From Acidobacteriota bacterium (GTDB lineage Bacteria; Acidobacteriota; Terriglobia; Acidiferrales; UBA7541): 64,000 nt of DNA. This document shows positions 43,056-58,508 of the stretch, one piece after another. The notes beneath the pieces were generated by a model. It was given only the letters and a program-made list of their open reading frames with translations. It made no database searches and was not told the origin of the DNA. The DNA lies in assembly GCA_013289585.1 (NCBI GenBank), contig JABCZR010000014.1, positions 1 to 64,000 of the forward strand. Reading direction: 5' to 3'. The translations under genes were made by a program, and so were the position numbers. The first letter of the stretch is position 1. Each line of letters opens with the position of its first letter.

Positions 43056-43585
43056 GATGCCAATTCCGTTCCTTCCGTACCTTCGATACCCAGAATATCC
43101 AGTGGCGGCATGGCCGCATCCAGCGACGCAAGTTCCTCGGGCGATAAAAATCCTTCCGGGTTTACTACCGGAATGACCGACTGGTCGATCGCGGTCAGCC
43201 CTCGGTACCACTGCCTTTCTTCATGACAGAAGGATTGAGGCAGTGCTTGCAGCCTGGTCATGGCCGTCATTTTCTCAATGCCATCGACCAGCAGAGCAGT
43301 GCGCGTTTTCCGCAACACGAAAATAAGTGTTCCCTGCGAAAGGGGAAGGTCAAAATGGAGTGACGCGTTCACGATAAAGAGAGATCTGTCCCCGCGCCGC
43401 AGGACTTGCCGAACTTTACGCAGGCCCGGCACATTAATTTCTAAGGAAGCGCCAGCCAGACTATCCTTTCCGCGGACCTCCTGCACGGAAGCCGAGGAAA
43501 CCGCAAACAGCTGGCCGCACAGACGGAAAACGATGATCTGTTCCGTACGCGCCGGACTTGGCCTTGCTGGGGCTGCTACACGCAT
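43052..43585 (-). CDS. Divergent CheW-like protein
   Basis: Encodes 177 residues. 'QIIVFRLCGQLFAVSSASVQEVRG', 'VPGLRKVRQVLRRGDRSLFIVNASLHFDLPLS' and 'TALLVDGIEKM' follow the CheW fold, but key glycines of the second subdomain (usually GxxxxRGxxxPxxDL) are altered. The C-terminal 25 residues are acidic. It may bind a different partner than the other CheW copies. Coupled to cheB by a 1-nt overlap (TGATG) and to cheW by ATGA. Confidence 0.78.
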   Translation of the reverse strand: MRVAAPARPSPARTEQIIVFRLCGQLFAVSSASVQEVRGKDSLAGASLEINVPGLRKVRQVLRRGDRSLFIVNASLHFDLPLSQGTLIFVLRKTRTALLVDGIEKMTAMTRLQALPQSFCHEERQWYRGLTAIDQSVIPVVNPEGFLSPEELASLDAAMPPLDILGIEGTEGTELAS

Positions 43586-44709
43586 CAGCGGACTCCCGCG
43601 GGAGTCTGCCGGCAGATACTGAGAACGCGTTTTTCTATGGCTGCGTAAATGTCGTCGATACCGAGAACTTGATCCACGGCGCCGGCTTTGATCGCCTCGG
43701 CGGGCATGCCGAAAATAACAGAGGTTGCTTCGTCCTGTGCCAGCACGAAACCGCCTGCGGCCTTGATCGCTTTGGCCCCGTTGGCTCCATCGCTTCCCAT
43801 GCCCGTAAGCACCCCGGCAATACTCAACGCGCCTGCGAAAGCCGCAACGGATTCCATCGTAACGTCAATATTCGGCAGGTAGCCTTCAATGCGGCCCGAC
43901 GATCCATCCAGCTGAATTCGGCCCGAGGGCGTTACGCGAAGGTGTTGTCCGCCTGGGCAGATGTAAAGTGTTCCCGGTTGCAACGTTTCATTGGCTTCGG
44001 CTTCTTTCACTCGAACCTCAGTGAATTCCGCAAGCTGCGCCGCGTACTGCGTCGTGAACGCTGCAGGCATGTGCTGCACAAGGATGACTGCGGCAGGGAA
44101 GTCCCGCGTGAAGCCGGGAGCGATGCGCATCACCGTCGCCGGTCCGCCTGTCGAAGCCGCTAAAACAACGACGGGAAATCTTTGATCGAGCCCGGAAGTC
44201 GCCGCAGGACGTGGGCTGACAGGCACTTGGACACGTGGTTTCGCACTGTTGCCGTCCTGGAGTTTGGAGGCGATTCTCGACGCCGTGCGCACGACGCGCA
44301 CTTTGCAGGCCATGCGAACTTTGCGAAGGAGTTCCTCTTTCACGCTCTGCATGTCCAGGTCGATAGCGCTGGAAGGCTTGCCCACAAATTCAATGGCGCC
44401 CAATTCCAGTGCGCGAAGCGTGCTCGCCGCGCCCTCCTTGGACTCGGAGCTGACCACCACGATCGGACGCGGGTTGGTGGTCATGATTTCAGCCGTCGCC
44501 TGCAGGCCGTCCACATGCGGCATGTTGATGTCCATGGTGATCACGTCGGGCTTCAGCGATTCGGCCAGCGACACCGCCTCACGGCCGTCCTTCGCGTGGC
44601 CAACTACCTGCAATAGGTCATCCGCGTTGAAAATGGTCTCCAACACTTTGCGCATGAAGGCGGAATCGTCCACGATCAGCACGCGAAACTTTTTGTTTGT
44701 CGTCGCCAT
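43585..44709 (-). CDS. cheB: Chemotaxis methylesterase with receiver domain
   Basis: Encodes 374 residues. The receiver has Asp60 in VITMDINMPHVDG. The catalytic domain has the Ser-His-Asp triad: Ser in VLAASTGGPATV, His in VQHMPAAFTTQYA and Asp in GMGSDGANG. It removes methyl groups from receptor glutamates when phosphorylated by CheA. It lies 7 bp after cheA. Confidence 0.96.
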   Translation of the reverse strand: MATTNKKFRVLIVDDSAFMRKVLETIFNADDLLQVVGHAKDGREAVSLAESLKPDVITMDINMPHVDGLQATAEIMTTNPRPIVVVSSESKEGAASTLRALELGAIEFVGKPSSAIDLDMQSVKEELLRKVRMACKVRVVRTASRIASKLQDGNSAKPRVQVPVSPRPAATSGLDQRFPVVVLAASTGGPATVMRIAPGFTRDFPAAVILVQHMPAAFTTQYAAQLAEFTEVRVKEAEANETLQPGTLYICPGGQHLRVTPSGRIQLDGSSGRIEGYLPNIDVTMESVAAFAGALSIAGVLTGMGSDGANGAKAIKAAGGFVLAQDEATSVIFGMPAEAIKAGAVDQVLGIDDIYAAIEKRVLSICRQTPAGVR

Positions 44710-44716
44710 CTCTCTT

Positions 44717-47695
44717 TTACGCCACCGGAACGACCGGGCGGGTCGCTTCCGTTCCTATGAGTTGTTCCACTGCTGCGATCAACTGATCTTCCTGAACTGG
44801 TTTGGTCAAGAACGACGAAGCGCCTTCCTTCATCGCGCGATCGCGATGCTTTGCGCCCGCTCTGGAAGTGACAACCATTACGGGTATCCGGCGTGTCGTC
44901 GGGCTCTGCCGCAACTGCACCATTAATTCGTACCCGGTCATCCGCGGCATCTCGAGGTCGGTGATCACCAGATGACAGCCGTGTTGCGAGACAAGCTCGG
45001 CTGCTTCCAGTCCATCGGCGGCCAGCTTCACGCGGTAACCATTCTTTTCCAGCATGCGGCCCACGAACTTGCGCACGCTGATGGAGTCGTCGGCCACCAC
45101 GATCACGCGCTCTTGCTCGACGCGATCGATGGCTTCCGACGGAATCGTTCCTTTGGCCACCGCGGTTGAGCCCGGCGCAAAAATCCGCGCCGCGCTGGAG
45201 CTCGCCTGCAACGCGCGCCGCTCGTTCGGTTCCGTTGCAACCATGCGGTTCAAATCGATCAACAGAATCAGGCTCCCGTCTGGCGCGATCGTTGTCCCAG
45301 GAAAAAGTTTCACGCGGCGCAAGTATTCACCAAGGTTCTTGATGACGATTTCGTCCTTGCCAATGACTTCTTCCACGACCAGGCCGATTTGCCGGTTTCC
45401 GGCATTGGCGACAACCATCCGAAAGTAGCCGTTGATGGGCTCCAGTGGCGGCAAGCCCAAATAGGTGTCCAAACGAATGACTTCAGTCACCACGTCGCGA
45501 ACCTTGGTGAGCAGCTTTCCACCAACATCTTCGATCTCGTCCGCACGCAAGCGTCGAATCTCCTCGACAACCGCCAGTGGCAGCGCGAAGTTCGTCGTCC
45601 CGCAACGCACAAACAGCGCCGGCGAAATGATCAGTGTGAGAGGCACTTTGAGAGTGAACTTCGTCCCTTGGCCCGTCGTGCTCTGAATATCGATTTCGCC
45701 GTTCAGCGCATTCAGATTCGCGCGCACCACGTCGAGACCTACGCCTCGCCCAGCCAGCTCCGTCTTCACCGGGGCGGTAGTAAAACCAGGGTGGAACAGC
45801 ATTTCGCGAAGGTCGCGTTCCGTCAGGCGATCCGCGGTTTCCGGTGAAACGAGTCCGCGCTCGATGGCGCTCTGCTTCACGCGCTCGTAATCGATTCCCC
45901 GGCCATCGTCTTCCACTTCGATGTAAATATGATTTCCGCGGTGGTAGGCCCGCAGCGTGATATTGCCCATTCCCGGTTTGCCGGCCGCGATGCGGTCATC
46001 GTTGTGCTCGATCCCATGCGCCACGGAATTTCGCACCAAGTGGACGAGCGGGTCGGAAATCTGCTGAATAATATTGTTATCAAGCTCGGTTTCGCTTCCG
46101 GAGAGGTCAAGATCAACCTGCTTGCCGGTGGATTTTGCCGCGTCGCGCACCGCGCGCGACAGCCGCGAATAGAGTGTCCCGATCGGCACCATTCGCGCTG
46201 CCGTGATCTCATCCTGAAGGTGATGAGCCAGCTTCGTGAATTCGTCGATGTCCCCCTCGACGCGCCCGATGAATCCTTCCAGCTGCGACAGCACCTCGTT
46301 CACGTCGGCAGAAATTTCCGCCATAGACCGCGACAAAATGTTGAAGTCGTCGTACCGGTCCATTTCCAGTTCGCTGAACTCCGACCAGATCTCGCCCGCC
46401 GCGGCGCTGGTCAGCATTTTGGGCGTCGCTGCGGGAGTCCAGGGGCCCTGATTCGAACGGCTGTTGCTGATGCGATTGAATTCGTACTTCTCTTGAAACT
46501 CAGCGACTTTTCCTTGCAGCCGCTCTTTCGAAAAACCCAGCGTATCAACCAGCTTTTCCAGCTCTGCAACGCGCCCCACCATCCGCGTTCGGTTAATCAC
46601 CAACTCGCCGACGGTATTCATCATGCGATCGAGCCGCGCGAGCGCGATTCGAACGGACTTGACCGCCGCCGCGGGTGTCGCCGCTTGTTTCCCCGTCTTT
46701 TTCGCAGGCACAATCGCGTGAGATGCGGCTTCTGCCTCGACGCCACCGTGCGAATCGGCCGTTCCGGCCGCTTCGGCCAGAATCTCCGCTTCCTCCGCAT
46801 CCATCGGGGCGAACTCTGCGATGCGCCCCAGCAGGGAATCGACGCCCGTGCGCATTTCAACTTCATCCACCCATTGCCGGTGAAGCGTCTTCTTCAGTAC
46901 GTCAACGGACTCAAGGCACAGGTCCACGACCGCCGGCGATGGTTCGATTTCTCCGTCGCGCAGCCGGCCGATCAGATCCTCGACACGATGCGCAATGCCC
47001 CCGAGACGTTTCAGCCCAACCTGCGCGGCCGAGCCTTTCACCGTATGAATGGCGCGAAAAAGTTTGTTGATCTCTTCTGGATTATTGTTTCCTTCCAGCG
47101 AAATCAAGCAATCACTGACGATTTGCAGGTGCTCTTCCGCTTCCGGCTGGAAGAATTCCAGAATTTCGTCCGGCACTTCGTCATCCGTCGGCAGCGCGTC
47201 AAAATAAGATCCCGTCGCAGCAGCGACCGCATTCTCGTTGGGAATTTCATCTGTAAATCGTCCCCGCGCTTCCGGCTGAGGATAGTTCAACGGAGGTGGT
47301 TCCGTCGGGAATGCGAAACGATACCGTTCTTTAAAAGCCGCGATATCCTCAAGATTCTCTTTGCCGGTGTCGCTAATCTCCAGCAGATCGTTTTCCAGCA
47401 ATGAGATCCCGTCGGACAGAAATTCCGTCAGCGGCCCGTGCAAGTCACTGCCTAGCGGGGCGTTCAGCGAATATTGAAAAACGTGAGCAAGCTTGCTGGC
47501 GATCTCCGAAAAACGCGGAAAACCATAGCTTGCCGAGGTCCCGCCTAGAGTGTGCGCCGCAATGTATAGATGTTCGAGATCCTCGTGCCTCGGCTCGACT
47601 TCCTGAAGCACGCTGACATACTCCCGCAGATACTGCAGGTGCTCCGAGGCTTCCTGGAGGAACATCTCGACGCCTTCGCGGTCCGCAATGCTCAC
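44717..47695 (-). CDS. cheA: Hybrid CheA histidine kinase with two Hpt domains and a receiver
   Basis: Encodes 992 residues starting GTG within the cheR stop (GTGA). Hpt1 has His48 (AAHTLGGTSASYG; the usual Lys after it is Gly) and Hpt2 has His217 (AIHTVKGSAAQVG). A dimerisation domain (about 345-500), the HATPase domain (HLVRNSVAHGIEHNDDR, DDGRGID, GRGVGLDVV), the CheW-like regulatory domain and a C-terminal receiver (VITDLEMPRMTG) follow. More than one Hpt plus a terminal receiver resembles ChpA of type IV pilus systems and not flagellar CheA. No P2-type CheY-docking domain is evident. Confidence 0.95.
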   Translation of the reverse strand: MSIADREGVEMFLQEASEHLQYLREYVSVLQEVEPRHEDLEHLYIAAHTLGGTSASYGFPRFSEIASKLAHVFQYSLNAPLGSDLHGPLTEFLSDGISLLENDLLEISDTGKENLEDIAAFKERYRFAFPTEPPPLNYPQPEARGRFTDEIPNENAVAAATGSYFDALPTDDEVPDEILEFFQPEAEEHLQIVSDCLISLEGNNNPEEINKLFRAIHTVKGSAAQVGLKRLGGIAHRVEDLIGRLRDGEIEPSPAVVDLCLESVDVLKKTLHRQWVDEVEMRTGVDSLLGRIAEFAPMDAEEAEILAEAAGTADSHGGVEAEAASHAIVPAKKTGKQAATPAAAVKSVRIALARLDRMMNTVGELVINRTRMVGRVAELEKLVDTLGFSKERLQGKVAEFQEKYEFNRISNSRSNQGPWTPAATPKMLTSAAAGEIWSEFSELEMDRYDDFNILSRSMAEISADVNEVLSQLEGFIGRVEGDIDEFTKLAHHLQDEITAARMVPIGTLYSRLSRAVRDAAKSTGKQVDLDLSGSETELDNNIIQQISDPLVHLVRNSVAHGIEHNDDRIAAGKPGMGNITLRAYHRGNHIYIEVEDDGRGIDYERVKQSAIERGLVSPETADRLTERDLREMLFHPGFTTAPVKTELAGRGVGLDVVRANLNALNGEIDIQSTTGQGTKFTLKVPLTLIISPALFVRCGTTNFALPLAVVEEIRRLRADEIEDVGGKLLTKVRDVVTEVIRLDTYLGLPPLEPINGYFRMVVANAGNRQIGLVVEEVIGKDEIVIKNLGEYLRRVKLFPGTTIAPDGSLILLIDLNRMVATEPNERRALQASSSAARIFAPGSTAVAKGTIPSEAIDRVEQERVIVVADDSISVRKFVGRMLEKNGYRVKLAADGLEAAELVSQHGCHLVITDLEMPRMTGYELMVQLRQSPTTRRIPVMVVTSRAGAKHRDRAMKEGASSFLTKPVQEDQLIAAVEQLIGTEATRPVVPVA

Positions 47696-48576
47696 GCGCG
47701 CCCCTCCGCCACGAGTTCCGGCTTCTGCAATTCTTCCGCCGTTGGCTTCCGGTAGAGAATGCAGTCATTCAACACGATGGCCTGAAACTTCACCGGCATC
47801 TTCGAGATCGATTCGGAGTGCCCCAGAAAAAGATAGCCGCCTGGCTCCAGCGTGTCGAAAAAGCGCTGCACCAGCGCGCGCCGCCGCTCTTCCGAAAAAT
47901 AGATCAGCACATTCATGCAAAAAATCATGTCCATGCGTCCCACATAAACCGCGGACGCCAAGTTCATCTGCGCAAACGAGACCATTTTCCGCAGCCGTGG
48001 CTTCACGTGATAACCGCCACTCACCTCGGCAAAGTGTGCGCTCAACTGCTTTTCGCTCACGCTCGCGATGCTCCGGCCGGAATAGACGCCTCGCTCCGCC
48101 TGCTTCAAAGCGTGCCGCCCGACGTCGGTCGCCAGAATGTCCACATTCCACGCATCCGCAAAAGAAAGCGAATCCGCGATGGTGATGGCGATCGAATAAG
48201 GCTCTTCGCCCGTCGAACAGCCCGCGCTCCAGATTCGCAAAGTCCGCGGGTTCTTCCAGAACTTCTTGGCATGCAGTTCCGGCAGCACGCGCTTTTCAAA
48301 TGCCTCGTACACCGCGGGGTACCGGAAGAAACTCGTCTCCTGCGTCAGCAGCCGTTCCAGCAGGGCTTCATATTCGATGTTCGACTTGCGAATGGCACGC
48401 AGCAGATCCGTCCCGCGCTCCATCCCTTTCACGCGCAGTTGTTCGAGCACGCGAGTGGAGAAGAATCGTTCGCGCGATTCGTCGAAGCAAATACCCGTCC
48501 GCTCTTCAATTAGCATGCGGATCTCGCTCAACTCGTGTTCGCTCAGCCCTTGCACATGTCCCTGGCGTTCGGTCAT
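47692..48576 (-). CDS. cheR: Chemotaxis receptor methyltransferase
   Basis: Encodes 294 residues. The N-terminal helical domain 'LSEIRMLIEERTGICFDESRERFFSTRVLEQLR' and the SAM domain with 'IWSAGCSTGEEPYSIAITI', 'ILATDVGRHALKQAERGVY' and 'MIFCMNVLIYFSEERRRALVQRFF' are complete. It methylates receptor glutamates. It has no TPR tail. Coupled to cheA by a 4-bp overlap. Confidence 0.96.
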   Translation of the reverse strand: MTERQGHVQGLSEHELSEIRMLIEERTGICFDESRERFFSTRVLEQLRVKGMERGTDLLRAIRKSNIEYEALLERLLTQETSFFRYPAVYEAFEKRVLPELHAKKFWKNPRTLRIWSAGCSTGEEPYSIAITIADSLSFADAWNVDILATDVGRHALKQAERGVYSGRSIASVSEKQLSAHFAEVSGGYHVKPRLRKMVSFAQMNLASAVYVGRMDMIFCMNVLIYFSEERRRALVQRFFDTLEPGGYLFLGHSESISKMPVKFQAIVLNDCILYRKPTAEELQKPELVAEGRA

Positions 48577-48639: not shown

Positions 48640-50076
48640 CTAGCGAGCTGCGCCTGCCGGGACGGGCCGATCGGAATCTTCGCGCGCAGCAGGCGCCGCT
48701 CCCTTGGAGGACGCGCGGAATTGCGCCAGCGCTTCGTTCAACTGATCCGACAGTTTTACGAGCTGGCTCACCGTTGCCACCGTTCCGCGTGTTCCCTGTG
48801 ACGTCTGCCGCGTAATGCTGGAAATAATCTGCATCGCGTGCGCCACGCCTTCCGTTCCGCGCACCTGCTGTTTGGAAGCCAGTGAAATTTCCTGGACGAG
48901 TTCCGCCGATTGACGCACCACGTTTGAAATGGCGTCCAGCGCGCGTCCCGCCTGATCGGCCAGCGTCGCGCCGCCTTCGACTTCCTTCGTCCCTTCTTCC
49001 ATGACCACCACGGCTTCGTTCGTCTCCGCCTGAATGGCCTTGATCAACGCTGCGATGTCTTTCGTCGCGCTGCGGCTGTGTTCCGCCAGTTTGCGGACTT
49101 CGTCGGCAACGACCGCGAAGCCACGTCCCGCTTCTCCCGCGCGCGCCGCTTCGATCGCCGCGTTCAGCGCCAGCAAGTTCGTCTGCTCCGTGATGTCGTT
49201 AATCACGTTGATGATTTCCGAGATTTCCAGTGAGCGGTCGCCCAGAGACTTGATTTTCTTGGCGGTCGCCTGCACCGATGCCCGGATGCGCTGCATGCCT
49301 TCCAGCGTGTCGCGTACGGCGCGGTTGCCCTGTTCCGCCGCATCCAGCGCGCGTCGTGCAGCCTCCGCGCTGGCCTCTGCGTTGTTCGAAACCTGTTTCA
49401 TTGATACCGTCAACTCTTCGACGGCGCTTGACGTGTTGGTGATTTCCTGATCCTGTTGCGTCGCGCCCGCCTGCATTTCGTCGGCAGCCACAAGAATATT
49501 GTTCGAGCAGGCCGTCACTTCCATGGCCGCCTTTCGAACGCGCTCGAGAACCTTCGTGAAATTGTCCAGCATGTAATTGATGGAGTCCGTGACGTTGCCC
49601 AGCGCGTCGTTGGTCACTTTGCCGCGCTGCGCCAGGTCACCGCGTGCCACCTGGTTGATGACGCTGAGTAGCTCGGTGATGCTGCGCTGCAATGCGTCGT
49701 TCGCATCCTGGTTGCTCGTAGCCTTGGAGACGCGCGCCACCGCGCGATTCAAATTGTCGGAAATGTAGCCAAGCTCATCGCTTGACGTCACTTCGATGCG
49801 CGCGCGTGGATCACCTGCGGCGAGCCGTTCAGAGAATTCCGCGAGCGCCTGTACCGGTCCCAGCAGGCCACCGAGCCGCCAAGCCATGACCGCCCAAGTC
49901 GCCAGCGCGATAATGAGGGCGAACAATATCGTTCCCCCCGCGGGCGAGCTGAAGTCAAAAAATGATGCTTCGCCAGCCTTCTTCCCGGCGCTGAAGGCGA
50001 GCCCGAGAACGACGCAGCCGGCCGCTGCGTTCAGCAGGACCAGCAGCCAAATTGTGGAACTCAATCGCGATTTCAT
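48640..50076 (-). CDS. Methyl-accepting chemotaxis protein with minimal periplasmic part
   Basis: Encodes 478 residues from the ATG at 50076, preceded by GGAGGAAGTT. Two membrane helices (about 7-30 and 47-66) are separated by only about 17 residues, so there is no periplasmic sensor domain. A HAMP domain (about 67-120) and a second HAMP-like repeat precede a complete signalling hairpin with '[43 protein letters not shown]'. Signals must come from the membrane, from the cytoplasm or from a partner protein. No C-terminal CheR-docking pentapeptide. Confidence 0.93.
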
Positions 50077-50137
50077 AACTTCCTCCAAATCTCTTCCACG
50101 GAGCCCGCGCCATCAAAGGCCGGCGTCTCCACTAAAT

Positions 50138-50665
50138 TCAAATGCTCGGCCCCGGAAAAACTTCGAGCAGCCGGCGCAGATCGATCACCAGCGCCAGCCG
50201 GTCGTCGTGCCGCAACATTCCGATGCAATGCGGCACATTCTCCGGCGCCTGCTCGAGCAAATCCTCGGTGTTCACCGAATACGTTCCAATGACCTCGTCG
50301 GCCGCAATGCCAATTCGCAGGTCATCGTGGTGGTTCTCGATGCGCAGGGAAGCGACCACTACGTGCTTGGGAAGCAACCCAGGCCGCCTGCCTTCCGTAA
50401 TGGCGATGTCAATCAGGGGCACGATCGCACCGCGCAAATTGAAAATTCCTACCAAGTACGCCGGTCCAAGAGGCAGCTTCGTCAGCAGTGGCCAGTCCAG
50501 CACTTCCTCAACATCCAAAACCGGCAGGCAGAATCGTTCGCGCCCGCTGCGGAAGACGCAGTACTGCGATTCCGGCTGGCGTTCTTCCACGGGGCCCAGG
50601 GCTTCGAGCAAATCCCCCGTATCCGCATCCGCCGGTAGCGGCACCAGATGAAAGTCTTCGCTCAT
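50138..50665 (-). CDS. cheW: CheW-type coupling protein
   Basis: Encodes 175 residues from the ATG at 50665. An acidic 40-residue lead precedes the CheW domain: 'QYCVFRSGRERFCLPVLDVEEVLDWPLLTKLPLGPAYLVGIFNLRGAIVPLIDIAI' and 'IGIAADEVIGTYSVN'. It is the best-conserved CheW of this operon and lies just upstream of the receptor gene, so it probably couples that receptor to CheA. Confidence 0.92.
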   Translation of the reverse strand: MSEDFHLVPLPADADTGDLLEALGPVEERQPESQYCVFRSGRERFCLPVLDVEEVLDWPLLTKLPLGPAYLVGIFNLRGAIVPLIDIAITEGRRPGLLPKHVVVASLRIENHHDDLRIGIAADEVIGTYSVNTEDLLEQAPENVPHCIGMLRHDDRLALVIDLRRLLEVFPGPSI

Positions 50666-50690
50666 CGCCCGTTCATGCTCCCTGCAAGAA

Positions 50691-51053
50691 TCATGCGAAC
50701 CGCCGCACCGCGCGAAGCAGTTCTTCACGCGTAAAAGGCTTCGTCACGTAACCGTCCGCGCCCTGTTGCTGTCCCCAATACTTGTCGCTTGCCGTGTCCT
50801 TCGATGTCACCAGGATCACTGGAATAGTTTTGAAATCGTCGCTGCCCTTCAAATCGCGGCAAACTTGAAATCCATTGCGATTCGGCATCACCACATCCAG
50901 CAGGATCACATTCGGGTGTTCGATGGCGATCGTTTCCTCAACCCTTGTGGGGTCGTTCAGCCCCACCGGCCAGTAGCCTTCTCGTTCCAGCAGGCCAAGC
51001 ATCAACTTGACCTCCGCCGGTGAGTCATCAACGATTAAGACCTTTTTGTGCAC
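50691..51053 (-). CDS. Single-domain response regulator (CheY/PilH-like)
   Basis: Encodes 120 residues from a GTG at 51053 with GGGGAGAG seven bases before it. This gives a standard receiver length. LIVDDSPAEV, phospho-acceptor Asp53 (VILLDVVMPNRNG), LVTSKD and the Lys in TKPFTR are all present. An alternative GTG at 51107 would put the first 18 codons exactly on the sigma-54-like promoter at 51091-51106, so it is rejected. It is the likely diffusible output or phosphate sink of the neighbouring CheA. Confidence 0.88.
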   Translation of the reverse strand: MHKKVLIVDDSPAEVKLMLGLLEREGYWPVGLNDPTRVEETIAIEHPNVILLDVVMPNRNGFQVCRDLKGSDDFKTIPVILVTSKDTASDKYWGQQQGADGYVTKPFTREELLRAVRRFA

Positions 51054-51090
51054 AGCCGTGCTCTCCCCGTACTTGTCCACAGAGCAGAGG

Positions 51091-51106
51091 TGCACGTCAG
51101 CAGCCA
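51091..51106 (-). promoter_or_regulatory. Sigma-54-type promoter before the receiver gene (internal to the operon)
   Basis: Minus strand TGGCTGCTGACGTGCA. It has TGGC-N8-TGCA and the strict GG-N10-GC spacing of sigma-54 promoters (-24 GG at 51105-51104, -12 GC at 51093-51092). The predicted start of transcription is near 51080, 27 nt before the receiver start codon. A GTCTCA-type dyad is upstream at 51224-51238. Confidence 0.55.
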
Positions 51107-51186
51107 CCTTCAGGCTTCTGGAAGCCCTTGTGTCGTTTTAGAATAAACGCTTATTTATGAGTGTGTTGCAGGGATTCAGCGACGAT

Positions 51187-51870
51187 TTAGCGCCGCCTCG
51201 AGGACGTCCCCGTGGTCTCTTCCGTCTCACGTTGAGAAGCATTCTCAGCCTCTTGCATCTCGCTCGCAAGCGATGAGAAACGCTGGATGACTTCGTTGAT
51301 ACGCAGGGCCATGCTGTGGATTGTCTTGATCTGCGCCAGCGATTGTGTGGAGAGCTGTCCGGGTTCCAGAAGCAGCAGTTCGGCGTTCCCCAGCATGGAA
51401 GTCAGCGCGTTATTCACGTTGTGCTTCATGTCCAGCATGTACCGGCCGAGCGTTGCGTGATTTTCGTTCTTGGCGGCGTTTCGTTCTGCCTGGCGCGCCA
51501 GCCTGACGGCTTCCGCTCTGCGCAGCGATTCTCCGGCCACGAGCAAGAGCGTCTGCGCCCAGTCCTCGCGCAAAGGGATATGCACCAATCTCGGATATTT
51601 CGTGCGCAGTTGTCCGTACTCGCGCGTGTCTGCCGGTACGCACAGAATGACCGCGGTCGCGGGATCGAGAGAACGCAAGACGTTCGTCAGCTTCCCCTCG
51701 CTCACGGGTCCTACCACAACGAGATCGCGCGCAGGTGAATCCTGTTCGCGCCAGAGTTCGCTGGTGATAACCGTAATGGCGGGAGCGTTTCGCTCTGTCT
51801 GCCAGCACGCCGTCAGCAGCCGCGCAAATTCCGTGTCATCGGTCAGGATCAGTACGTTTGCGTGTCGCAA
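51187..51870 (-). CDS. Kinase-like protein with DHp helix but no ATPase domain
   Basis: Encodes 227 residues. The N-terminal 120 residues resemble a receiver fold (VLILTDDTEFARLL, ARDLVVVGPVSEG) without the phospho-accepting Asp. The C-terminal part has a His-box helix pair (LGRYMLDMKHNVNNALTSMLGNAELLLLEPGQ) like the HisKA dimerisation/phosphotransfer domain of histidine kinases, but no HATPase domain follows; the protein ends in a charged tail. So it may be a phosphotransfer protein or a decoy partner. It lies between the 494-residue orphan and the CheY-like gene in the same operon. Confidence 0.75.
   Translation of the reverse strand: MRHANVLILTDDTEFARLLTACWQTERNAPAITVITSELWREQDSPARDLVVVGPVSEGKLTNVLRSLDPATAVILCVPADTREYGQLRTKYPRLVHIPLREDWAQTLLLVAGESLRRAEAVRLARQAERNAAKNENHATLGRYMLDMKHNVNNALTSMLGNAELLLLEPGQLSTQSLAQIKTIHSMALRINEVIQRFSSLASEMQEAENASQRETEETTGTSSRRR
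51224..51238. promoter_or_regulatory. GTCTCA-N3-TGAGAA dyad, candidate activator site
   Basis: GTCTCACGTTGAGAA matches the 6-3-6 dyad of the perfect site at 58344-58358 at 11 of 12 arm positions. It lies inside the 3' end of the kinase-like gene, about 150 bp upstream of the transcription start predicted from the sigma-54-like promoter at 51091-51106. Confidence 0.5.
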
Positions 51871-51926
51871 TGAAGAGCCACTCCCCTGAAATGCCCGGCT
51901 GGTTTAAACCGCTCCCAGCGAAATCG

Positions 51927-53411
51927 TTACAGTTTTTCAGCTTCGACCAGCGCCGACAGCAGACGCTTCGTACTGATCCCCAGATTCACCGCCGCTTCCG
52001 TGTCCTTCGTCTGTTTCGCTACGTCCACGCGCTCCTGCAATCGTGTTACTTCCACGCGCGCCACGTTCATTGCTTTTTCAAGCGAGGTGGCGTTCCCCGT
52101 TTCCTTGGCGGATTCCATCGCGGCCGTTACCAGCACGCGCGCGACAACCGCGCGCCGCAGATCTTCGGCCGATGGCCCGTCGGAGCTCACGAATGCCGTC
52201 ACTTCCCACGAGGACAGTAGGATGCGCGCACCGCCTATCTTCACCGTGGTCATCGACCTTCCGCGTGCCGGAGGTGTGGCGATCAATTGCTCCCAGATCT
52301 GTTCCATGCAGGATTCAAAATCAAGCGCCACGGCGCCTTCTGCGCCCGCAGTCGCGGGCGGCGGGGTCCGTTCGTTGGATTTAGAACTGGCGCTGGGTGC
52401 AGCAGCTTCGACACTTGGTTTTCTCGCCGCCGCGAGAGTCTTGGGAGCGCTCCCCATAATCCCGAGCGGTGCGTTCTCCGATGGTTTGCCAAACGCCTTT
52501 TCGACCGCCTGCTCCACATCTGTTCGCAGTCCCAGTAGCTTGTCGAACGCTTGGCTCACCGTGCGTTCCGTATATTCCTTCTGGAAAGGCTGCTTCCACT
52601 CATCGGCCAGCTCACGAATCTTGTTGAGCGGTTCGGCGGCCGAAAGTCCAAAGTGGTGGCAATCCAGAATGCGCACGCCTCCGGCTTCCAATTGGCCCAA
52701 GCCGCTGCGGATGGCAATCAGGTCCGCGTGCATAAGTTCAATGAGCGTGCGCCTCAGCAAGAAGTTGAAGCGAATGAAGGCGATCAAGGCGGAAGGATCG
52801 TAAAACATGCCGCCTGCCGTCTCTTTAACTTTGCGGCCCTGTTCGATGAAGTTCGTCTTTAGGATCTCCCGCAAGCTGCGGAAGCCTCGCAAGGATTCAA
52901 TCATTTTCTCAAGCGGTGAGCACCAAGCTAGCGGATCCGGATCCACTTCTCCCAGCACCGGTTTCATGACTTGCACGACATCGACGGGCTCAATCTGTTT
53001 GTGATAAATCTTTGCCGGCGAGCATAGCGCAAAGTATTGCACTAGCAGGAAGTCGATCTTGTCCCGATCGGTATTGCTCTTCCTCGACTTCCGCAGGTGC
53101 CGGCTGATCAACGCCCGTAAACCGTTCTCGCTGGCGTTTAGCGTCGTCATCTGCAAGAGATGGCGCAGCTGATGCACCATGACCCGTTCATCCATCGAAT
53201 CCAGCCACTCGTGAACCTGGCTGAACAGTTCCAGATCCGGCTTTTCCGCAAGATTCCGGTGGCCGGCTGGAAAGGGGATTTCGAGTTCCAGTTGCTTGGC
53301 AAGCGCCAGGTAGATCGGAAACACCTCGCGCGCTTCCTTCCATTGCAGTTGACGCGGGCTTTCTCCTCGCGATGGAGCGGAGAGATTCAAGGTTGTCATC
53401 GTTTTATTCAC
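51927..53411 (-). CDS. Large orphan protein of the chemosensory operon
   Basis: Encodes 494 residues starting GTG, overlapping the preceding PilZ-like gene by 4 bp (GTGA); an ATG at 53399 is a fair alternative. I recognise no domain. The first 280 residues are mostly helical (EWLDSMDERVMVHQLRHLLQMTTLNASENGLRALISRHLRKSRKS; FIRFNFLLRRTLIELMHADLIAIRSGLGQLEAGG). A Pro/Ser/Ala-rich linker spans about 320-365. The last part has a 'MTTVKIGGARILLSSWEVTAFVS' strand set then a helix. Soluble, no signal peptide. Operon position suggests a scaffold or an output partner of the chemosensory system. Confidence 0.75.
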   Translation of the reverse strand: MNKTMTTLNLSAPSRGESPRQLQWKEAREVFPIYLALAKQLELEIPFPAGHRNLAEKPDLELFSQVHEWLDSMDERVMVHQLRHLLQMTTLNASENGLRALISRHLRKSRKSNTDRDKIDFLLVQYFALCSPAKIYHKQIEPVDVVQVMKPVLGEVDPDPLAWCSPLEKMIESLRGFRSLREILKTNFIEQGRKVKETAGGMFYDPSALIAFIRFNFLLRRTLIELMHADLIAIRSGLGQLEAGGVRILDCHHFGLSAAEPLNKIRELADEWKQPFQKEYTERTVSQAFDKLLGLRTDVEQAVEKAFGKPSENAPLGIMGSAPKTLAAARKPSVEAAAPSASSKSNERTPPPATAGAEGAVALDFESCMEQIWEQLIATPPARGRSMTTVKIGGARILLSSWEVTAFVSSDGPSAEDLRRAVVARVLVTAAMESAKETGNATSLEKAMNVARVEVTRLQERVDVAKQTKDTEAAVNLGISTKRLLSALVEAEKL

Positions 53412-53758
53412 GTCTGTGTCACCCAGTCGCAGCGGCCTTGCGAGAATCGTACGGCCACCGCTTTGCGCCCTTCGTGGTATTGCACGGCCACCACGGTTCC
53501 TTCCGCCGTGCGCCCCTCCGGAACCGATTCCAACCGCACGTGTTCGTCAAACTCCAGCGGCAAGGTGGATAAAAAAATCGCGTACTCCTCTTCGCCAAAC
53601 TCCACCATTGTCGCTTCGCGTAACCGCGTACCCGCGGCCCGCAATGACGTCACTTGCACGGGGATTCGAACCGCTTTGGCTCGAGGGAAAAAACGGCCGA
53701 GCTGCTCCGCGCAGTTCTGTTCGATTGCAGTAAGTGTCGAACTGCTCGAATTTCCCAC
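53408..53758 (-). CDS. PilZ-like protein, first gene of the chemosensory operon
   Basis: Encodes 116 residues starting GTG at 53758. The strand pattern 'VRIPVQVTSLRAAGTRLREATMVEFGEEEYAIFLSTLPLEFDEHVRLESVP..TAEGTVVAVQYHEGRKAVAVRFSQG' matches PilZ proteins, but the RxxxR and DxSxxG cyclic-di-GMP contacts are missing, so ligand binding is doubtful. Many pilus and chemosensory operons contain such proteins. The gene is preceded by a sigma-54-type promoter at 53855-53870. Confidence 0.7.
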   Translation of the reverse strand: MGNSSSSTLTAIEQNCAEQLGRFFPRAKAVRIPVQVTSLRAAGTRLREATMVEFGEEEYAIFLSTLPLEFDEHVRLESVPEGRTAEGTVVAVQYHEGRKAVAVRFSQGRCDWVTQT

Positions 53759-53854
53759 GTCGCCTCGCGCCCTGCCCCGGCCACAGCTCCGCGCACTTCT
53801 CTGCGGCCAGACACACCACGCGCCGCAAAAGGCACAGACTTCCGCTGACAGAGA

Positions 53855-53870
53855 TGCACGCCGTGCGCCA
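53855..53870 (-). promoter_or_regulatory. Sigma-54-type promoter of the long chemosensory operon
   Basis: Minus strand TGGCGCACGGCGTGCA, with TGGC-N8-TGCA and GG-N10-GC spacing (-24 GG at 53869-53868, -12 GC at 53857-53856). Predicted transcription start near 53844, giving an 86-nt leader before the PilZ-like gene. A GTCTCA-type dyad lies upstream at 53953-53967. Confidence 0.6.
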
Positions 53871-53952
53871 AAGAGTCGGAATCGTTTTGTTCGTGGAAAG
53901 TACGGAAACGGAAGGGCTTAGCTTTTTCCTTGGACCTCGTGATGGCTCAACC

Positions 53953-53967
53953 GTCTCAGCGTGAAAC
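53953..53967. promoter_or_regulatory. GTCTCA-N3-TGAAAC dyad, candidate activator site
   Basis: GTCTCAGCGTGAAAC is a 6-3-6 dyad differing at one position from the perfect site at 58344-58358. It is centred about 116 bp upstream of the start predicted from the promoter at 53855-53870. Further half-sites are near: a TTTGTG/CACAAA dyad containing GTCTCA (53969-53983) and GAGACGTCTC (54019-54028). Confidence 0.55.
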
Positions 53968-54033
53968 GTTTGTGTCTCACAAATCCGTGTCGTCCGCTGG
54001 CCTCGCCAGGCGTTCCGTGAGACGTCTCGCTTA

Positions 54034-55452
54034 TCAATGGGCCGGCTCTTGCGGGTCCAAAACGCCCCCCAGGCTGCCCGGTCGCGAGTGAATGTTATAG
54101 CGCTTCAGCTTGCGATACAGCGTCGCCCTGCTGATCCCCAGCATCTTTCCCGCAAGTGCCTTATCGCCATTCGCTTGTTCGAACACGCGCAGAATCGTCA
54201 TCCGCTCCATCTCTGCCAGCGCCGTGGTCGAGAGAGACCCCGACTCTGGAGATGCCGAAATCGCGGAATCGCTCTGTTCGCTGCGGATCGCGGGAGGAAG
54301 ATCAATCACATCGATCGTCTTGCCGTCGCCCAGCGTCACCGCCCGAGCAATGCAATTCTCCAGTTCGCGGATGTTCCCCGGCCAGTCATAGTGCAAAAAG
54401 CTTTTCATCGCGCCCGCGGTCACCTGAATTTGCGAGCCCTTGGCATAACGGTCCAGAAAATGATGTACCAAAACCGGAATGTCCGACCGCCGCTCCCGCA
54501 GGGGAGGGAGGTGCACCGTCACGACGTTTAGCCGGAAATAAAGGTCCTTTCGAAAGGTCCCCGCCCGGTAGGCAGCTTCCAGGTCGCGATTCGTCGCGGC
54601 GATCACCCGCACATCCACGCTTACATTCGAATTGCTTCCCACGGGCCTGACCTCTTTTTCCTGCAGCACGCGCAGCAGCTTGGCTTGCATTTCCAGAGGC
54701 AGCTCTCCGATTTCGTCCAGGAAAATCGTCCCGCCATTCGCCGCCTGAAACAGCCCCGCCTTCGTTTTGGTCGCTCCCGTGAACGCGCCCTTCTCATAGC
54801 CGAAGAGCTCACTCTCCATCAGCGTGGGAACCAGCGAGCCGCAGTCCACCGCCACAAACGGCGTCTGCGCCATCGAGCCGCGAAAGTGGATCGCCCGTGC
54901 CGCCAGCTCTTTTCCCGTGCCGCTTTCTCCGGAGATCAGCACCGGCGTTCGCGTATCTTTCAGGCGCGAAATCATCCGCAATACATCCTGAATATTCGCC
55001 GACGTCCCGATCATCCCATCGAGGTTCTCTTCCGTCGTCACGCGTTCGCGCAAAAACTCGTTTTCCGTGACCAGCCGCACCTTTTCCGCCATCCGTTGCA
55101 GCAGCAGCCTCATCTTCTCCACGCGAAACGGTTTCTCGATATAGTCGTACGCGCCCAGTTTCATCGCGTCCACCGCTGACTCGATGGACCCGTGTCCCGT
55201 CATGATCGCCACTTCCGTGTGCGGCAAAAGTTGCTTCGATTGCTTCAGCAATTCCACGCCGGACATTGTTGGCAGTTTCAGGTCCGTCAAAATAAGATCC
55301 GGCGCGTCGGATTCCACTCGCGCCAGCGCCGCCTCCGCGCTCTCCGCTTCCGCGCAGACGTATCCTAGCGTCGTGCCGATCGTCATGCACAGCCGGCGAA
55401 TGCTCTGCTCGTCATCCACCACCAGTAAACGTGTCTTGTTTGCTTCGCTCAT
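54034..55452 (-). CDS. NtrC-family sigma-54-dependent response regulator
   Basis: Encodes 472 residues from the ATG at 55452, overlapping the previous stop (ATGA). Receiver: Asp57 in [16 protein letters not shown]+ domain: Walker A GESGTGKE (175-182), the sigma-54-contacting GAFTGA (222-227), Walker [14 protein letters not shown], and '[38 protein letters not shown]'. C-terminal Fis-type HTH: '[22 protein letters not shown]'. All parts are intact, so it should remodel sigma-54 RNA polymerase when phosphorylated, probably by the kinase two genes upstream. The GTCTCA-N3-TGAGAC dyads near the three sigma-54-like promoters are its likely targets (inference). Confidence 0.95.
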
Positions 55453-55847
55453 GGTTTCCCGAAGGTTTTCTCCACAATCGAAATCAATTGCTGCACCCGA
55501 AATGGCTTTTCGATGCACGGCGTCCCGCATTGCGCCAGAAACGCCTGCGTATCGCTGTTCGCCGTGTCCCCGCTGATCAGAATGATGCGCGTCTTCAGCT
55601 CTGGCCGATTCTTCTGAATCCATGCGTGAACTTCCGCTCCGTTCACCGCCCCCGGCATTCGAATGTCGGAAATCACGCCCGCATACCTCCCATCCGAAAG
55701 CCGCTCCAGTCCTTCCGCGCCCGAGGCCGCGTTTACAACCGCGTATCCCTTTCGCTCCAGGGCTGCATGAAGAAACGCAATCACCGAAGGTTCATCTTCG
55801 ATCAGCAGAATCGGCCCGCCGGTCCACATCGCGGTCTGGGCCTTCAT
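55449..55847 (-). CDS. Single-domain response regulator
   Basis: Encodes 132 residues. The receiver is complete: LLIEDEPSVI, phospho-acceptor Asp in GVISDIRMPGAVNG, LISGD and the Lys in EKPFRV. No output domain. It is coupled by 4-bp overlaps to both the histidine kinase and the NtrC-family gene, so the three form one unit. It may be a phosphate sink or a relay between the kinase and the activator. Confidence 0.92.
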   Translation of the reverse strand: MKAQTAMWTGGPILLIEDEPSVIAFLHAALERKGYAVVNAASGAEGLERLSDGRYAGVISDIRMPGAVNGAEVHAWIQKNRPELKTRIILISGDTANSDTQAFLAQCGTPCIEKPFRVQQLISIVEKTFGKP

Positions 55848-58204
55848 CGCCCGGCTTCTTTCGCCGCTGCCGCCGCAAGGGACGTTTCCGTCGCCACTGG
55901 TATCCGCACCACAAACGTGCTCCCCGGCTCTTCTTCATTGCTCCAGCACTGAATCTCTCCGCCGTGTGCGCGCACGATTCCGTAGCAAATGCTCAATCCC
56001 AGCCCGGTCCCCTTGCCCACCTGTTTGGTCGTATAGAACGGATCAAAAATCCGCTGCGTATCCGCAATCCCCGTTCCATTGTCGCTGATCGCCACTTCAA
56101 TCATGTCAATGCGTCGGCGCGTATGAATCTTGATGCGCCCCCGCTGCCCCGCTTCCTGCACCGCATCGTAAGCATTATTCAGTATGTTGAGAAACACCTG
56201 CTGCAGCTGCTGCGAATCGCCCAACGCTGGCGCCAGTGCTTCCTCGAAATCCTCCAGCACCTCGACTCCATGGCTCGCAAAATCGTAGCTCCTCAGTTTG
56301 ATCGTCTGCCGCAGAACGTTATTCACCTGCACAAGTTCGCGCTGCACCGGCCGCTGCCGCGCAAAGCTCAGCAAATCCTGCACGATATCCTTCGTCCTCT
56401 GCGTCTCTTGCAAAATAATCTGCAAATCGTCCCGCGCCGAAACCGGCACCTCCGGATTCTCCAACAGCAGGTCCGTGAATCCCAGAATCGCCGCCAGCGG
56501 ATTGTTCACCTCGTGCGCCACTCCGGAGACCAGCCGCCCGATTGTCGCCATCTTCTCGCTATGCGCCAGTTTCGCCTGTAGCAGCGCCGCGTCCGTAATG
56601 TCTGTCATCACCACCACCACGCTGTTCACCGCTTTTTGCTCATCTCTCATCGGGCTCAGGCTGATCGAAAAATGCCCCATCGACCCATCGCTCCGCCGCA
56701 CCCGCAGTTCCAGGTTTTCCACCTGCTGCCCGTTCGCCGTCGTTCCCAGCGCCGCATCGAAATCCTCGCGGTGTGATGCCTCCACCCAATCCACTAGCCG
56801 GTGCCCGATCAATTCGTCTTCCTGATAGCCCGCCTCGTAGCATCGCCGGTTCGCGTAACTGATCAGCCCCGCCGTATCCAGCACCAGGATCATGCTCTGC
56901 GTCGTATTCAGAATCTTCTGGTTAAAATCGCGTTCCCGCTGCAGTTGCGATTGAAAGGTCTTCTGCTCCGTGACATCCAGCATCAACCCGCGGATTTGCG
57001 CAATCCGCCCGCGTGGATCGCGTACCGCCGTTATGTTCTGCAGCGTGTGCAGCAGCGTCCCATCCTTCCGCCGCAGCGTCTCTTCGTAATTGCGCAGCAC
57101 TCCGCGCTCCGCCAGCGCCTGCAAAAATCTCTCTCGCACGTCCGGCGCCGGGTAGAGGTGTGGCCCCACATCCGCCCGCAGCAATTCCTCTCGCGAAGCG
57201 TACCCCAGCATCCGCACCATCGCATCATTGACGTCCAGGAATCTTCCGTCCGGAGTCGCGAAAAACAATCCTTCCTGAATGCTGTCAAACAGCTCGCGAT
57301 ATTTTCGTTCCGCCTCCCGGCGGTCCGTAATATCTTTCAACACGTGAATCGTGCGCGTGTCGTCGTCGGAAACGCTTGGCGTTCGCGAAGTCGAAACGAG
57401 AAAAATCCGCTCCGACGACGCTGCTACATACTCTTCCCGCGTTCTCTTGGTATCCCTGCAGAACGGGCAGGGCAGATCGCTCCCCGTCTCCGCAATCTGT
57501 CGCAAGCTGCTCATCGCTTCGCCAACCAGCGCCACCGGCGGCACGCCTAAATGTGATGCCAGTGACCGGTTCGTTCGAACGATATGCCACGCGCGATCGT
57601 GCACCACGATGTAATCGCTGATCGCATCAATATCTTCCACCCACTGCCGCTTCGAACGCTCTAGTTGCGAAAATCGCCTGAAGTTTTCTAGCGACAACGC
57701 CGCGTGGCTCGCCAGCGCATGCAGCAGCCTTTTCTCATCCCCATCGAGGCTCTTCCCCTCGCGCAACAGGCACAGTGTTCCCAGTTTTTCGTTGTCGCTT
57801 CCCGCAATCCTCACGAATACCGCCGCAGTCGGCGTCATCTGCCCCGAAAATCTTTCGGCTATCTCCTTGGGCAGGTCTTGGACATCCACCTCGCTGCGGC
57901 TTTCGCGCGCGCGTTCCATCAGCCACTTCTCGAAACCGTCGGCAATCGCGCGCTCCGTTCCAGACGCGGGGTGCAATTCCGACTCTCTCCCGCGGTAAAC
58001 CGCTACGCCTCCCCACATCGCATTCAGCATCCTCGCGCACCGCCGCGCAAACTCTTCCAGAAACGCCGGCAGATTCTTCGACTGCGCCGCTTCTACCGCC
58101 AGTTCCATCAACTCTTCCGCGTGTTTCGACATGGGCGCCGGTGCCAATACTTTCTCCCTCCGGCGCGTGGTGCTCTGGGTCGTCTTTGCTTTCGGTACAC
58201 GCAT
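55844..58204 (-). CDS. PAS-domain sensor histidine kinase
   Basis: Encodes 786 residues if started at the ATG 58204; the frame is open to a GTG at 58243, and 58132 is another ATG. The order is a GAF-like domain (about 25-190), three PAS domains (about 200-310, 315-425, 440-545; the first has a DLPCPFC Cys pair), HisKA with His564 in 'SGVAHEVNNPLAAILGF', and a C-terminal HATPase domain (DNGTGIADTQRIFDPFYTTKQVGKGTGLGLSI). No membrane helices, so it senses a cytoplasmic signal. It is the first gene of the control module ending in the NtrC-family activator. Confidence 0.9.
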   Translation of the reverse strand: MRVPKAKTTQSTTRRREKVLAPAPMSKHAEELMELAVEAAQSKNLPAFLEEFARRCARMLNAMWGGVAVYRGRESELHPASGTERAIADGFEKWLMERARESRSEVDVQDLPKEIAERFSGQMTPTAAVFVRIAGSDNEKLGTLCLLREGKSLDGDEKRLLHALASHAALSLENFRRFSQLERSKRQWVEDIDAISDYIVVHDRAWHIVRTNRSLASHLGVPPVALVGEAMSSLRQIAETGSDLPCPFCRDTKRTREEYVAASSERIFLVSTSRTPSVSDDDTRTIHVLKDITDRREAERKYRELFDSIQEGLFFATPDGRFLDVNDAMVRMLGYASREELLRADVGPHLYPAPDVRERFLQALAERGVLRNYEETLRRKDGTLLHTLQNITAVRDPRGRIAQIRGLMLDVTEQKTFQSQLQRERDFNQKILNTTQSMILVLDTAGLISYANRRCYEAGYQEDELIGHRLVDWVEASHREDFDAALGTTANGQQVENLELRVRRSDGSMGHFSISLSPMRDEQKAVNSVVVVMTDITDAALLQAKLAHSEKMATIGRLVSGVAHEVNNPLAAILGFTDLLLENPEVPVSARDDLQIILQETQRTKDIVQDLLSFARQRPVQRELVQVNNVLRQTIKLRSYDFASHGVEVLEDFEEALAPALGDSQQLQQVFLNILNNAYDAVQEAGQRGRIKIHTRRRIDMIEVAISDNGTGIADTQRIFDPFYTTKQVGKGTGLGLSICYGIVRAHGGEIQCWSNEEEPGSTFVVRIPVATETSLAAAAAKEAGR

Positions 58205-58266
58205 CGTTCTTACGCTGCTCCTGCGTCTCAACTTGCGAGACACACGATTTTACACCCTAACGGGCA

Positions 58267-58281
58267 GTCTCATTCTGAGTC
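58267..58281. promoter_or_regulatory. GTCTCA-N3-TGAGTC dyad, candidate activator site
   Basis: GTCTCATTCTGAGTC differs from the perfect 6-3-6 dyad at one arm position. It is 77 bp upstream of the perfect copy, and about 260 bp from the predicted start of the plus-strand operon. Confidence 0.5.
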
Positions 58282-58343
58282 AATTCCCTTCCGTGCCGTG
58301 TATCCAAACCATCTACAACTCCCCCTTGCCCAGTTCGCATTAA

Positions 58344-58358
58344 GTCTCAGGCTGAGAC
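58344..58358. promoter_or_regulatory. Perfect GTCTCA-N3-TGAGAC dyad, candidate activator site
   Basis: GTCTCAGGCTGAGAC is a perfect inverted repeat with 6-bp arms and a 3-bp centre. Its centre is about 184 bp upstream of the start predicted from the sigma-54-like promoter at 58509-58524, a usual distance for an enhancer site of an NtrC-family protein. Confidence 0.6.
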
Positions 58359-58508
58359 CTCATCACGCCAGACGCGCCTCGGCTGAGACAATTTCCCCCC
58401 ACTCGCTTGCACTCACCCGACCTCGAAGTTCACTCTAAACCTTTGCAAGTTTTAGACTTAAGGTGTTTTCTCACCTCCAGCAGGAACACCCTACTGACGT
58501 GCTGACCT

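Follow-up and report, generated by a model that had tools for sequence, protein, structure and literature searches.

A conserved, probable sigma-54 promoter before the receiver gene of an acidobacterial chemosensory cluster, with its predicted activator site in the coding end of the preceding gene

Introduction

Do the chemosensory (che) genes of an acidobacterial cluster have a sigma-54 promoter of their own, away from the head of the operon? The question is raised by a 64,000-nucleotide stretch of DNA from an Acidobacteriota bacterium (contig JABCZR010000014.1), called the window here, in which an original prediction placed a promoter (P2) ahead of the CheY-like receiver gene in addition to that at 53855 (P1). 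Sigma-54 promoters off operon heads are already known in Escherichia coli, Salmonella and Myxococcus. In the parts of the papers drawn on here, intragenic sigma-54 promoters are reported for E. coli (PMC4591121) and Salmonella (PMC3844500), while Nla28 of Myxococcus xanthus is reported to have dozens of targets and to use tandem 8-bp repeats as binding sites (PMC9765219). Among open-licence PubMed Central articles, titles and abstract starts gave no publication on sigma-54 control of che genes in Acidobacteria.

The cluster and its genes

The genes that matter here all lie on the minus strand.

43585 to 44709, minus strand: cheB
44717 to 47695, minus strand: cheA, with Hpt domains and a C-terminal receiver
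47692 to 48576, minus strand: cheR
48640 to 50088, minus strand: methyl-accepting receptor gene
50138 to 50728, minus strand: cheW
50691 to 51053, minus strand: CheY-like receiver gene, with its corrected start at GTG 51053
51187 to 51870, minus strand: gene for a 227-aa protein, lying before P2, with a weak HisKA match just below the Pfam cut-off
51927 to 53411, minus strand: gene for a 494-aa protein, without Pfam or NCBIfam family
53408 to 53758, minus strand: gene for a 116-aa protein of predicted PilZ-like fold, without Pfam family
54034 to 55452, minus strand: NtrC-family activator gene
55449 to 55847, minus strand: single-domain receiver gene
55844 to 58243, minus strand: GAF/PAS histidine kinase gene

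A Pfam search found no ATPase domain in the 227-aa protein. The 494-aa protein has matches in 36/36 genomes of the genus, and in 25 other relatives its matches are weak in 6 (best E 1e-17) and absent from 19. The 116-aa protein is predicted to be all-beta and gave four weak PilZ-domain fold matches (E up to 1e-3, best 5.7e-4, TM about 0.55). The activator has the architecture of the NtrC family, namely a receiver, a sigma-54 AAA+ domain with GAFTGA and a Fis-type helix-turn-helix; its start as given is our choice, the longest reading frame beginning at 55623. Its top NCBIfam model is AtoC, below cut-off, and of the 25 models listed no equivalog scores as high as its cut-off. Sigma-54 itself is encoded in the genome (one Sigma54_DBD match, E 8.9e-57).

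The cluster also occurs in 21 named records, mostly metagenome genomes called Acidobacteria, nine of which carry the label gp2. One record titled Betaproteobacteria (L070) holds the acidobacterial cluster, with 77% identity over the 227-aa protein, and is probably a mislabelled genome bin.

A conserved core and dyad before the receiver gene

Four elements make up the P2 region.

51106 to 51091, minus strand: P2 −24/−12 core TGGCTGCTGACGTGCA, of the form TGGC-N8-TGCA, recognised by pattern and by conservation over 35 loci
51224 to 51237, plus strand: dyad GTCTCACGTTGAGA, within the last codons of the 51187–51870 gene
51224 to 51247, minus strand: predicted P2 activator site TGAGAATGCTTCTCAACGTGAGAC with three half-sites
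51274 to 51280, minus strand: possible extra half-site TTTCTCA, in codons 197–199 of the 227-aa gene

From 36 loci of the same genus, the 35 with a receiver match enter the P2 counts; they represent one genus and are not independent of each other. The remaining locus (L083) has no receiver match on its contig piece, but its core and dyad nevertheless fit the composite pattern described below (genome G002). GG and GC stand ten bases apart, as a sigma-54 core has them, in 35/35 loci, where the core reads TGG-N9-TGC[A/T] and lies 3' of a TC[T/G]CA-N3-TGAGA dyad. The exact TGGC-N8-TGCA is found in 31 of the 35, and the fourth base is C in 32, T in two and A in one. With the search for the core confined to 120–140 bases past the dyad, the distance between the two is 130 (5 loci), 131 (26) or 132 (4), so that a putative upstream activator site sits at a fixed place in every locus. 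The distance from core to receiver gene varies from 69 to 83. Since the latter varies and the former hardly does, indels that shift the gene seem to leave the promoter geometry almost untouched. Conservation, proposed with the original prediction as a check, is decisive for the observation: none of the 35 loci lacks the core, the dyad or their spacing, and one genome of a sister genus shows them again.

A composite P2 pattern (core, 105–130 bases, GTCTCA-N3-TGA) has one match per genome in 28/36, every one at P2, and the same pattern with 75–104 bases has one match per genome in 23/36, at P1. The reversed pattern gave no match in the 36 genomes at either spacing. In the eight genomes without a composite P2 match, the region is present and one or two letters off the strict pattern.

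An operator shared by four places

If P2 is a sigma-54 promoter, which protein would activate it? The dyad has counterparts at three further places, two of them in the window.

53855 to 53870, minus strand: P1 −24/−12 core TGGCGCACGGCGTGCA
53953 to 53988, minus strand: predicted P1 activator site TGAGACACAAACGTTTCACGCTGAGAC with flanks
58344 to 58358, minus strand: P3 operator GTCTCAGCCTGAGAC, before the kinase/receiver/activator operon

The unit common to P1 and P2 is TYTCA-N3-TGAGAC, with TTCTCA-N3-TGAGAC as the P2 form. A TGAGA-N5-TCTCA operator was dropped; its single occurrence in the genome is P2 itself, which leaves the N3 dyad as the shared unit. Among the matches listed, GTYTCA-N3-TGAGAC stands at three places in the window's genome, namely P1, P3 and P4 (a site on another contig). 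It is present in 36/36 genomes of the genus and in 21/75 sampled genomes of the class outside it; 14 of these 21 have it at a single place, and so isolated chance operator sites exist. C11:153907 and C18:65529, which fail this pattern, were rejected as operator sites, having been checked only for nearby core-like matches.

At P1, the core and an operator half-site are found in 34/35 loci, the remaining contig beginning downstream of P1. Between this operator and the core (53880–53950), TAAG and TTTC blocks are also conserved and unexplained.

At P3, TTGACT occurs in 18/18 loci, running on as TTGACTCA-N3-TGAGA in most and as TTGACTGA in two; past it comes a −10-like hexamer that contains TA, in the window TAGGGT at a distance of 18 bases. 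To the eye, P3 looks like a sigma-70 promoter covered by operators, and on that basis the kinase/receiver/activator operon may repress itself. The region 58220–58400 holds several TGAGA/TCTCA operators, one overlapping the TTGACT −35-like element.

P4 lies before a GGDEF (diguanylate cyclase) gene of the window's genome (C16:118650 onwards; L038 1501–3013), behind GTCTCAGGCTGAGAC and a conserved GG-N10-GC. From 20 operator places that we chose among the matches listed, 51 loci were compared, and the same GGDEF gene stands beside the operator in 24 of them, in 24 of 36 genomes. Conservation of the operator itself is built into this comparison because the loci were fetched via the operator match. 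GG-N10-GC is kept in the 23 loci aligned (21 by pattern, two by reading), preceded by A, C or G and not T; the twenty-fourth (L100), without a gene start, was left out. This core lies about 208 bases past the operator in the window's genome. Between the two, conserved TAAC, AACA and GTCTC (L036–L039; about 1540–1640 in L038) have no explained role.

The cluster's own NtrC-type activator, assigned by position, is the likely binder of the TGAGA/TCTCA operators. Position is all that ties it to the dyad, and P2 could instead be a sigma-54 promoter whose dyad serves a different enhancer-binding protein of the genome. We consider this improbable, because a like operator precedes the activator's own operon in 18/18 aligned loci (17 exact) and both promoters of the activator's cluster, and because the sister genus has the operators along with the activator gene.

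The nature of the core

The conserved element could also be regulatory without being a sigma-54 promoter, for instance another factor's site or a leader structure. The P2 core is off consensus, with GTGC in place of TTGC and departures at the two bases after TGGC, and conservation reaches into the spacer and leader. With the loci anchored on the core, the eight motif positions average 1.87 bits of information, the spacer 1.46, the 34 bases past the core 1.08 and the 68 upstream bases 0.59. Selection may thus reach beyond the core, the spacer and the downstream bases being more conserved than the upstream ones; an invariant GGA lies past the core at about +3 to +5. However, the invariant positions are those of a −24/−12 element (TGG and CGTGC), P1 and P4 have GG-N10-GC behind the same type of operator, and the gene of an NtrC-type activator adjoins. 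An element of another kind is accordingly very improbable.

The receiver start and the apparent extension

The core had been described as coinciding with the codons of a GTG-started extension of the receiver gene, whose true start was placed at 51053 behind a good ribosome site. Both points hold.

51054 to 51107, minus strand: apparent N-terminal extension of the receiver, judged non-coding

The longest receiver reading frame opens with GTG at 51107 and runs through the P2 core. At 51068–51063 stands GGGGAG, with GTG 51053 following nine bases on. The short receiver has 120 aa, of which residues 5–117 cover the whole Pfam receiver model.

A coding reading, in which translation of the receiver begins further upstream and the motif follows from a conserved N-terminus, can point to a frame open in 26/35 loci and to alignment of the extension in most tblastn matches. 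Against it, the frame is broken in nine of the 35 (a stop in seven, a frameshift in two) with core and dyad intact, which largely contradicts the extension as the true N-terminus, and it was rejected. The GTG of 51107 occurs in five loci only, two of them with a broken frame, and the short start is GTG in 31/35, with ATG three bases upstream in three of the others and TTG six bases upstream in one. Comparison of homologs, the check suggested for the start, therefore gives a conserved short start and no general sharing of the longer N-terminus, and we give the coding reading even less credence than an element of another kind. A P2 transcript, moreover, could not encode the extension, because it would start about 27 bases past GTG 51107.

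Chance matches to TGGC-N8-TGCA do occur, and a single one is weak evidence, since the window holds 10 against a shuffle mean of 2.93 (none of 100 shuffles reached 10). Three others in the cluster, at 44597, 48830 and 53161, were dismissed as poorly conserved (kept in 1/17, 7/19 and 3/19 loci), whereas P2 was kept in 18/18 of the same control set and P1 in 9/10, the tenth having TGCT; these controls were the 21 named loci, partly the same assemblies as the 36, with loci that do not cover a site excluded from each n. A chance origin of P2, kept in 35/35 loci (31 exact) where the control matches are not, is rejected as next to impossible.

A predicted activator site written into a coding sequence

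P2 was predicted as a promoter internal to the operon, with its dyad in the coding end of the preceding gene. The dyad does fall in the last codons of the 51187–51870 gene. The core, by comparison, is intergenic once the receiver start is corrected (133 bases, 51054–51186), and so only the activator site is coding.

In a codon alignment of 35 sequences, counting at each codon only sequences with the commonest residue, the codons under the dyad are GCT 29/29, GAG 35/35, AAT 23/23, TCT 33/35, CAA 30/33, GCT 25/25 and GAG 35/35. In the body of the gene, 6.2% of 162 scored columns reach 90%. The dyad is the best 8-codon window for synonymous conservation (0.919; body mean 0.591, sd 0.077). The best body window (0.895, codon 144) comes close, and the window mean is therefore not unique to the dyad. 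The stronger sign of constraint is that codons seldom used elsewhere in the gene are fixed here: GCT is used 54/54 times under the dyad and in 10.9% of the alanine codons of the gene body. Over the first 190 codons, TCT makes up 8.4% of serine and GAG 32.9% of glutamate codons. Judged from these codons, the dyad freezes synonymous choices at the end of the 227-aa gene.

The TTTCTCA at 51274–51280, with TTC 35/35 and TCA 35/35, is possibly a further activator half-site. The second region of high synonymous conservation, codons 144–151 (about 51417–51441), is unexplained; its codons are mostly two-fold, among them GAC 22/22, AGC 29/29 and CAC 32/34.

The same arrangement in a sister genus

One genome of another genus in the same family (G061) has the che cluster, and at E 1e-5 neither the 227-aa nor the PilZ-like protein has a match in it. 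Its dyad TGAGACAGAGTCGCACAGTGAGAC is intergenic, between the 494-aa and receiver genes. A core TGGATGCCCAGTTGCA lies 130 bases past TCGCA and is followed by GGAGG and a GTG receiver start; it was found by reading, the stricter pattern having missed it with A as the fourth base. P1 is present as well, and 96 bases separate its core from its operator, the same distance as in the window. From this one genome, the simplest history would be that the 227-aa gene was inserted later, its end overwriting an activator site that already existed; the alternative is that the gene was lost in the sister genus.

Proposed mechanism

Taken jointly, these observations make P2 very probably a genuine sigma-54 promoter apart from P1, bound by the NtrC-family activator of the cluster. 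The histidine kinase of the activator's operon would probably phosphorylate the activator which, on half-sites 130–132 bp upstream, would loop to a sigma-54 polymerase waiting at P2. Transcripts are predicted to begin near 51080, which would make the leader up to GTG 51053 about 27 bases long. The same activator would turn on P1 and the distant diguanylate cyclase gene at P4, and would restrain its own operon at P3, whose operators overlap the sigma-70-like promoter.

P1 would drive the PilZ-like, 494-aa and 227-aa genes, and P2 those from cheY to cheB. With a separate start at P2, cheY, cheW, the receptor gene, cheR, cheA and cheB could be made independently of the three genes before them. 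Between the 227-aa gene and the receiver, a search for terminator-like sites on the minus strand came up empty (50600–54200 holds four such sites, against 4.3 in shuffles), and so read-through from P1 may add to P2.

Comparison with known systems

Within the parts of the sources used here, P2 resembles the E. coli and Salmonella cases in lying away from the operon head, in being conserved between species and in its predicted driving of a downstream gene. Unlike in these cases, its core is intergenic and only its activator site is coding, and its leader is predicted at about 27 bases, compared with 360–760 nt in the E. coli cases (PMC4591121). The limitation of the coding overlap to the activator site is what is unusual in P2. 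Repeated short half-sites, sites in coding sequence and operon-internal promoters are shared with Nla28, as far as the excerpted account goes (PMC9765219), but here the repeat is inverted, four places are seen and the phylum is another.

The activator matches the NtrC family in its domains and stands apart in its predicted targets, a chemosensory cluster and a diguanylate cyclase gene. FleQ of Pseudomonas, an activator of the sigma-54 type, has links to motility and c-di-GMP functions. The setting here differs in that flagellin has no match in the window's genome. Three matches to the PilT family are over cut-off, and in the light of both results the che system may act on type IV pili or have some output other than flagella.

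Significance

For genome reading, the locus holds two traps: an over-long gene call can hide a sigma-54 promoter, and regulatory DNA can fix the codons at the end of a protein. The analysis yields an operator with a probable binder, seen at four places, in a group whose genomes used here are metagenome-derived. More tentatively, and with rather more doubt than confidence, the whole may be a small dedicated regulon of one activator, comprising the chemosensory array with two independent sigma-54 starts, a PilZ-like protein and a diguanylate cyclase, in which a later gene was printed over the P2 site, so that regulatory DNA and not protein function would dictate the C-terminal tail of the 227-aa protein. 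Such a regulon would tie the chemosensory system of a genome without a flagellin match to c-di-GMP synthesis under a single regulator.
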